A stretch of DNA of 64,000 bases, taken from Branchinecta lynchi. Taxonomy: Eukaryota; Arthropoda; Branchiopoda; Anostraca; Branchinectidae. Positions 17,001-63,899 of the stretch are shown one piece after another. The stretch spans positions 11,284,001 to 11,348,000 of the forward strand of contig JAKZAP010000005.1 of the NCBI GenBank assembly GCA_023053575.1, in the 5' to 3' direction. The notes under the pieces were generated by a model. That model did no database searches, was not told where the DNA came from, and worked only from the letters and a program-made list of their open reading frames with translations. The translations under genes and the position numbers were made by a program. Within the stretch, counting starts at the first letter, position 1; the number at the start of each line of letters is the position of its first letter.

Positions 17001-20000
17001 GGTGAAATAGAGTGAGTACCGGAAATCGTGTAGCACGTCTAGGGATCAAACAAATGGATTTATTGGGATGAAAGTTTGAACAGTCATGTGCATTTGCAAT
17101 CGAGACGATGCCGGAACTGCTCAGAAATGAGTGAAACTAAATATCCTATTTCTATTTCCGAACCGCCTTTTTGGATGGCGGGTGTATTTTGTGACGTTTT
17201 CATCTACTTTCTTGTACAGCCTACTCGTACAAGTGCCATATGAGCTCGTAGCTCTTGTTTTTTTTTGGGGGGCCCACCCCCACTCCCACCCGGTTCAGGG
17301 GCAAATGGTCCCAGATTGCCCAGTGAATAATATTCATAACTTGACCAGAACTGGACATAGGACGATGAAATCCGTTGTACGTGTAGATCTTAGGGCTGGG
17401 AAATTGCTTTTAAAGTTTCACCTCTAACACCCACCTAGTTCATATGCAACTGGGCCCAGATTGCACAGCAGTTAAGTTCGTCCATGATAGGTCTCAAGTC
17501 CAACTCTTTTATATTTTGGGAGATATATCTATGGATGAGGATTTTGGTGTGACAGCAACAAATAAGACGACGCGACGGAATCTGGACCTGGACTGTTTTG
17601 TCATATGATGGATGATATGACAAAGGGGGCATTGGGCTGCTACGTTTTGGAGTGTTCCTTGGAACAATCCGCCACCACACTTCCGACTAAGCACAGTGTG
17701 TCGAAAGATTCACGATGCCCTAAACCCTACGCGGACAAAAGATGCATCCTTAAAGGACATGTCTTCCGTATAATACTAACGCAGCCTACTTCCGTAATCA
17801 CTCCAAACATTTCTAAGCCCGGAGGCCCGAATTTCCTACGGTACATTCTAACCCCTCTAATAAAACTTCGCTAATTTTCTCACTTGCCGTGTTTTACAAC
17901 ATTCGATGCATATCACGCTGTCGACGTTTGTCTGCGAGACGTTTTTCCATCAGAAAAACCGGATATGTAAATTTCTCCTCGTTCTCGCTACGAGTCAAAG
18001 GGTGTCGAAAAACACTTGAAACAGCCCACGCCGTGGATAATTTGTTGAAAGCAGAGCCTAGTCTTAAAGTAGTCAATTATTTTTAAATACTGAGAGTTGA
18101 AGAGTAAATAGTGCGAAGGGTCCTTTAACACAGTGGTTCCCAGCCGGTGGTTCCCGTACCCCAAGGGGTACGCAAGACCCTTGCGAGGGGTACGCGAAGG
18201 AATCAAAATTGATTTAGTCTGTAGCTTCGAAATCTCGCCTCACTCGTTTTTGATTGCCGAAAGCCTAATATTACCAGCAGAGGCATCACAGCGAAAATGT
18301 ATCTAAGGCGCAAGGTATTTTTACTGGCCGACTGTTTTTTGTTGTTTTTAAATAACTGCTTTTACGAAAAATATTGAGAACATCAAAACAAAACACAGAA
18401 ACAGGCCGACTGTAGAATATATTCAGCTAACGACGTCGAGCTGACATTTGATTTTTTTTTTTTTTTGCTGCAAAGCAGCCTCTAGTAATTGCCTCATTAA
18501 TTTTTATAAATTTGTACGTATGTAGGCCTATTTATGATAATAACTATCGTCTTTTTCACGTTCTGAAAAAGGGGGTACGCAATCTTTTCGAGCCTTGCTT
18601 AGGGATACGCGGTACGGAAAAGGTTGGGAACCACTGCTTTAACATGACTGACAACCCAGCCCCCCGCCCCATCGTATGAGCTCACAAACCTCAACTCCAG
18701 CAGGAGCTGGTAGATGGTCAAAATTGTCGAGGTGTTGCTTAAAGGATGTAAGCGTCTTCTCTTATTTTGTTCTGTTCAGTGGTTTTTCATGCATTTTTCC
18801 CTATCTTTATGTTGCTCCGCCGTACCTAGTAAGCGGGTTCTAAACAAATGATTACTATTACGCAGCTGTTATCTTAAATCATAAGCTCAACAACCCACGC
18901 TAGACTGTTTATTCAAGCAAAAGCTTGACAAATAGCCACGCCTTCGAACCGTTAATATTTCTGGAAGCAGACCGATCCGACGGGTTGTCCAGCATGACTC
19001 CAGGATGTAGTTTCATATAAAAGGATTCCAGACCGCCATTTACTTCAGACACTTCTAACAGTTTGTTAGTAAAGCATCTCGGTTTTCACTAAGAAAAAGA
19101 AAACAATGAAGCTGGTAAGTCGAACGTTTTTCAACTTAATTTTTTTACAGTTTGAACCATTCGAATTAGTTTTTCTCCGGTTCAAAACCTAAAATCATTT
19201 CCCGCGACGATTACTGTGCTGATAATGTTAACTTTTGTGTAGTAATTTAGTGTTAATGATAATAAAAAACTTAAACTATCTCGCTCCTCCTCTCGAGTAT
19301 TCGAAAATACAAATGATACAAATTCAGTTTTCCAGCACTATTTGTTGTTCCAGAGTCAATACTAAAACTAAACATTTTGATCGATATAAAGCGAAGAGAC
19401 AGACGGCGAATCTAGCGGGTCTTTGGTAAATCATTTGCCCAGTATCGGGCATAGCGCCAGTAGAGTTATAGACTTGTGATATACACTGTTATAGCTATAG
19501 ACTGTTCTAGACTACTAGTATAGACCCAGAAAGTTCCCCAAAGAAAACTCTAAAAAAAAAAAATAACTCCGGACCAATTCAAGGGAAATTTCAAACATGT
19601 GTATGCAGACGTTTTTTGTTCAACTATGCCTAGGATATCCATTAAAAACTCGTAAACAAAAAGGTTCGCAGTAAACATAATCTGCTCTCCCTTCTAGTTC
19701 CTCGTTGCATGCCTAGCCATCGCTGCCGTTCTGGCTGACGACAGCCAACCAACTGCCATTGTAGCCGACAACAGCGAGGTCGCTTTCACCGATCAGGAAA
19801 CTGCTGAGACCCGCTGGGCAGGCTATGGCTACAGACGTTACGGCGGCTATGGGCACGGCTACGGAAACGGCTACCGTTGGAGACGTGACACCGCGGAAGT
19901 AGCACAGCCAGAGGAGGCTGAAACTGAGCTTGAGGGAGAGGCCAGCCATCATCGTCGCTACTACGGAGGCTACCCAAGCTATGGCTACGGCTACAGCCGC

Positions 20001-63899: not shown

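Follow-up and report, generated by a model that had tools for sequence, protein, structure and literature searches.

What are the six small genes that lie within the introns of a SEC14L1-like gene in the fairy shrimp Branchinecta lynchi, and what would their glycine- and tyrosine-rich products do? The question was addressed for the window, i.e. the whole stretch of DNA analysed (64,000 nucleotides of contig JAKZAP010000005.1). An initial annotation had placed six secreted-precursor genes there (GY1 to GY6). All six were found at the claimed places and intact, with splice sites, open frames, and a shared promoter and poly(A) signal:

19016..19048 (+), GY1 core promoter, from TATAAAA at -90 to an initiator-like CAG (CAG assigned by eye)
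19106..19114 (+), GY1 exon 1, coding for MKL, with a GTAAGT donor
19698..20318 (+), GY1 exon 2, including the stop codon
20397..20402 (+), GY1 AATAAA
38004..38012 (-), GY2 exon 1
36772..37395 (-), GY2 exon 2
43239..43247 (-), GY3 exon 1
42338..42958 (-), GY3 exon 2
50868..50876 (-), GY4 exon 1, with a GTAATT donor
49875..50483 (-), GY4 exon 2, part of a mosaic gene
57215..57223 (-), GY5 exon 1
56276..56884 (-), GY5 exon 2
62553..62561 (-), GY6 exon 1, coding for MNL
61642..62250 (-), GY6 exon 2

The start codons are located at 19106 (+) and at 38012, 43247, 50876, 57223 and 62561 (all five -). Each gene consists of two exons, of 9 nt and of 202-207 codons, and the spliced proteins (205-210 residues) are read from open frames with no internal stops in all six cases. 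The start is MKL in GY1-GY5 and MNL in GY6. Exon 1 is followed by the donor GTAAGT (GTAATT in GY4), and exon 2 opens with TTC behind an AG acceptor, which in GY5 and GY6 reads CAG directly before TTC. In all six genes TATAAA starts at -90 or -91, a CAG (found by eye) follows 30 nt past the TATAAA start, AATAAA is located 44-79 nt past the stop codon, and the intron falls inside the signal peptide, behind the tiny first coding exon.

The host exons were located with a human SEC14L1 query, and most of their edges are approximate; it is by this comparison that we take the host gene to be SEC14L1-like. The following exons were mapped:

8336..8443 (+), host exon, edges approximate
12335..12523 (+), host exon, N-terminal part of CRAL-TRIO (Pfam CRAL_TRIO_N, PF03765, E 4.8e-9)
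25239..25331 (+), host exon, 3' edge approximate
27291..27560 (+), host exon, CRAL-TRIO, edges approximate
28160..28276 (+), host exon, edges approximate
31866..31985 (+), host exon, edges approximate
35536..35674 (+), host exon, source of a dead copy, edges set by TTTTTAG and GTGAGT motifs
63816..63905 (+), host exon beyond the stretch with GY2-GY6, edges approximate

These exons run along the + strand, PRELI-type exons lie upstream in the DNA before the window, and the PRELI, CRAL-TRIO and C-terminal parts follow one another on one strand in the SEC14L1 layout, as judged with the human query. A search of the 10 kb that follow the window did not locate the last SEC14L1-like exons. GY1 is located within a 12.7-kb host intron (12523-25239) on the host strand, and GY2-GY6 are antisense, between the host exons 35536-35674 and 63816-63905 (28 kb). 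The exon map supports the claim that the genes are nested within two introns of a single SEC14L gene, with one copy on the host strand and five on the other; a further small host exon could lie inside the 28-kb stretch, since about 17 query residues between the flanking exons were not located. Several other features share this DNA. A fold-back inverted repeat (32278-32768 and 33213-33722, arms 80-92% complementary in pieces) occupies another host intron, and related repeat arrays (14266-16841, 22586-23976 and 45313-47247; Tandem Repeats Finder, where it detects them, gives periods of ~134 and ~427 bp) lie in introns shared with GY genes. Retroelement-like frames were recognised by eye at 11384-12139, 58971-59723, 60250-60639 and 51985-52524 (all -); the last has a weak Pfam match to Integrase_H2C2 (E 0.0034, below the cut-off), and Pfam gave no match for 58971-59723 and 60250-60639. 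A tRNA-Tyr gene is present at 1095-1169 (-).

How the copies came to lie in two introns can be read in part from two segments of the GY1 intron:

18732..22550 (strand not assigned), inverted segmental copy carrying GY1, paired with 38384-34713 in gapped pieces of 75-87% identity
21709..21800 (-), inverted, truncated copy of host exon 35536 (its first ~92 bp, with the acceptor)

This pairing shows GY1 to be an inverted duplicate of the GY2 region, in which part of a host exon was copied as well. The full exon stands in the host reading frame and the copy beside GY1 is truncated, so the GY2 intron was the source and the GY1 intron the target; the captured fragment thus gives the direction of copying. 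The promoter and intron similarities group the genes into three pairs (1 with 2, 3 with 4, 5 with 6); exon 2 and the 3' flank instead place GY4 in a group with GY5 and GY6. A break test located the break early in GY4 exon 2, within the interval +428 to +461 relative to the ATG: of the informative sites, 101 of 117 before the break and 9 of 73 after it match GY3, and none of 5000 permutations reached the observed value. GY4 is accordingly a mosaic, GY3-like upstream of the break and GY5/6-like downstream, and sequence exchange among the copies belongs to the history of the family; such exchange may help to keep exon 2 alike. The nesting in the SEC14L1-like gene looks like the outcome of a spread of promoter-bearing copies and not like a functional link to the host gene, and the locus is a clear example of how a gene family expands inside the introns of a single host gene.

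Copy number was examined in the window and in the 576-Mb genome, for which match counts are lower bounds. When the window was searched with the six GY proteins by tblastn (E <= 1e-3, best match per 700-bp bin), only the six GY places were among the matches listed. The GY1 query found at least six places in the genome, all in this window; P0001, a related protein described below, found all six GY genes and two other places at E 2.6 and 6.3, and the Daphnia sinensis protein P0008 matched a single GY gene (E 3.4e-4). No other intact copy was met in these genome searches. A decayed relative is, however, located ~0.9-1.8 kb past the window end (positions 860-1760 (-) of the following DNA; best tblastn E 9.5e-8, low-complexity filter off). 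By eye it shows an ATGAAG start followed by GTAC, a stretch that resembles a signal peptide and, distributed over three frames, a number of DQE and RWRRD-like parts; the frames contain 6, 7 and 7 stops in 951 bp, which are partly non-coding. The count of six copies in the initial annotation consequently holds for the intact genes, with at least one dead relative beside them.

This dead neighbour is what could be cited for regarding GY1-GY6 as nested-gene debris that has no present function and whose decay is still to come. Conservation, calculated as the mean pairwise identity among the six copies per 50-column bin, drops outside the promoter, exon 2 and the 3' UTR: it amounts to 72-91% in the proximal promoter, 85-93% in exon 2 and 72-81% around the 3' UTR, as against 49-65% in 11 of the 12 intron bins (the remaining bin, at 76%, holds 6 aligned columns) and 47-54% far out in the 3' flank. 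The dN/dS ratio was 0.10-0.43 in all 15 pairs by NG86 and 0.19-0.57 by YN00 in the 14 pairs that could be computed. For six chosen pairs the mean dN was 0.070 and the mean dS 0.341; the bootstrap ratio was 0.15-0.30, and dN reached or exceeded dS in none of 200 resamples. Among 204 codons the third position varies in 76, the first in 42 and the second in 25, and the six copies differ by two small in-frame indels only. The Gly/Tyr-rich parts gave lower ratios (0.06-0.33) than the acidic parts (0.14-0.54) in 14 of the 15 pairs, in part because dS is higher there; the exception is GY5-GY6 (0.68 against 0.36), with very few changes. GY1-GY6 are under purifying selection, as had been claimed, and the ratios are not near 1. 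Decay in waiting is highly improbable in view of the bootstrap ratio and of six unbroken frames, kept although intron identity between different pairs amounts to only 47-65%.

The architecture of the selected product was then considered. By inspection, the proteins start with a signal peptide, and past the first 16 residues the proteins contain no Cys, 15-19% Tyr and 14-15% Gly. Three conserved R-X-[KR]-R sites followed by D divide each precursor into four modules (46-51, 46, 57 and 40 residues); in every module an acidic N-terminal part precedes a C-terminal part rich in Gly, Tyr and Arg. Sites were counted where a basic pair is followed by S, D, A or F. Arg occupies P4 at 18 of 18 counted sites in the window and at 48 of 49 in 22 relatives, the sole exception being EFRR before A in P0014. 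Basic pairs outside this count (two of five in GY1, four of seven in P0008) lack R at P4, and some stand at the start of a Gly/Tyr block. The description of the products as secreted-type precursors was supported. Furin in the secretory route would be expected to cut at the R-X-[KR]-R sites and to release four peptides of ~40-57 residues each, presumably disordered: the model of GY1 exon 2 is disordered (mean pLDDT 39.5), with a sole helix at residues 2-12. Whole modules carry a net charge of -4 to +2 (His not counted), and the Gly/Tyr parts alone are basic by eye.

These sites bear on the proposal that the genes code for the precursor of a peptide hormone or neuropeptide whose amidated products would end in R-NH2. 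Gly stands directly before the basic pair (P3) at 12 of 18 window sites and at 47 of 49 sites in the relatives, as amidation would demand, and cuts at the extra basic pairs that open some Gly/Tyr blocks could yield shorter products. The other six window sites read RWRR, so that Gly does not precede every pair, and amidation is possible for some products but not for all. Arg at P4 of the counted sites fits furin cleavage without amidation, and six gene copies are unusual for a peptide hormone. The initial annotation had left hormone, defence and structural roles on an equal footing; the hormone role is lowered by Arg at P4 of all 18 counted sites, by the six sites without Gly and by the length of the products (40-57 residues), and we regard it as improbable. 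Defence and structure are not separated by this evidence.

Relatives were sought by single-sequence and profile searches. The single-sequence search with GY returned P0001 (E 2.6e-3). A profile of the six GY proteins and trimmed P0001 (A2) gave P0003 (1.7e-7), P0004 (1.6e-4), P0005 (2.0e-4) and P0006 (0.2). With a profile of three GY genes and five relatives (A3), for which the best 7989 candidates were scored, at least 21 proteins were obtained at E <= 1e-3 (best 8.9e-30), five of them members of the profile itself. Organism names were attached to seven of the 21 matches, all of them Daphnia (D. sinensis, D. magna, D. carinata, D. pulex and D. pulicaria); Daphnia surfaced only with A3, and an Artemia protein, P0024, was weak in the same search (E 0.22). 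P0002 (E 0.18) was discarded as a compositional match. Since low-complexity sequence can mislead, GY1 was compared with 14 relatives against 300 local shuffles within 12-residue windows. Eleven of the 14 were reached by at most one shuffle in 300, and P0014, Artemia P0024 and P0028 by 12, 8 and 5, respectively. The family is thus linked to uncharacterised Daphnia proteins by a similarity that goes beyond shared composition, and the earlier view of a family without recognised kin gives way to a profile-based tie with five Daphnia species. In P0001, P0007, P0009, P0010 and P0017, protein frames running upstream show Q just before the homologous start (by eye), as a CAG acceptor would read, which suggests that the tiny first coding exon is old.

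No significant Pfam match was found for GY1, GY6 and ten relatives, no significant PDB sequence match for GY1, and no match of the six GY proteins in NCBIfam (bacterial and archaeal models); the protein search therefore gave no well-characterised family with another role. No paper was found with the GY sequence motifs or the Daphnia gene identifiers in a literature search that lay mostly outside subscription journals. Candidates rejected as due to chance or composition were a mycobacteriophage family of Pfam for GY (E 0.082 and 0.0076, below its cut-off), PDB matches for GY1 (E 0.79-0.96), and Loricrin for P0022 and GRP for P0024 (below the Pfam cut-off).

The best explanation builds on six intact genes under selection, each of which has a core promoter and a poly(A) signal of its own. 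It draws further on the lower dN/dS of the Gly/Tyr parts, on Arg at P4 of the counted sites, on the relatives and their margin over the shuffles, and on the predicted disorder. We favour the order host defence, then secreted structural protein, then peptide hormone. GY1-GY6 may be working crustacean secreted multi-peptide precursors whose peptides act in host defence, a reading held with somewhat less than even confidence. The released peptides would act outside cells, in the epithelium or haemolymph, and duplication and sequence exchange among the copies would raise their dose and variety. The main weakness of the defence reading is that, with cleavage at the counted sites only, the acidic part would remain attached and each product would be near neutral, unlike most cationic defence peptides. 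An antimicrobial role would thus need the Gly/Tyr part to act locally, or else a further cut, perhaps at some of the uncounted basic pairs. It also counts against defence that no named defence family was matched in Pfam, NCBIfam (bacterial/archaeal) or PDB sequences, and that a Gly/Tyr-rich composition is usual in cuticle, eggshell and cement proteins.

The same composition, together with the lack of Cys past residue 16 and the predicted disorder of GY1 exon 2, would suit a precursor that enters, whole or in pieces, the cuticle, the eggshell or cyst coat, or a gland secretion, with cross-linked Tyr and with acidic and basic blocks that aid condensing. Tiny first coding exons, too, are usual in arthropod cuticle-protein genes. 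This structural role is a real possibility that we nonetheless lean against: cleavage-type sites are kept in all six copies and in the relatives, the copies show only the two small indels, and the Pfam scans of GY1, GY6 and ten relatives contained no cuticle domain.

A survey of the D. pulex genome reports that antimicrobial peptides could not be recovered (PMC2685406), and a multi-copy, furin-type peptide family would be a direct candidate for them. That GY represents an unrecognised effector peptide set of branchiopods, which fills this gap and is kept as a nested, exchange-prone battery in the introns of a lipid-transfer housekeeping gene, is a bolder proposal and rather unlikely. An uncharacterised crustacean protein family now has a described gene structure, together with a model of its processing and a function that can be tested.

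Among known systems, insect defence precursors such as those of apidaecin and Baramicin carry several peptides on a single chain that is cleaved at basic residues. GY would resemble them in this layout on a secreted chain, and no homology is claimed. Close counterparts are the Daphnia relatives GHT06_009187 (P0008, D. sinensis), OUZ56_000828 (P0012, D. magna), LOC130691514 (P0014, D. carinata) and LOC124344395 (P0020, D. pulicaria), which share with GY a signal-peptide start (MNLM, MKFT, MKFL), acidic parts with DQD or DQE, and Gly/Tyr blocks. They differ in the number of modules and in the sites, which read RGRR in 46 of 49 cases in the relatives as against RWRR and RGKR in GY; a C-terminal W occurs only in P0008 among these four and in 12 of 22 relatives overall. 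By description only, armadillidin, a glycine-rich antibacterial peptide of a woodlouse (PMC3287506), is a further crustacean and Gly-rich counterpart. On the structural side, a study of tick saliva describes a large glycine- and tyrosine-rich GGY family beside glycine-rich cement proteins (PMC3244413); these resemble GY, again by description only, in being secreted, rich in Gly and Tyr and encoded in multiple copies.
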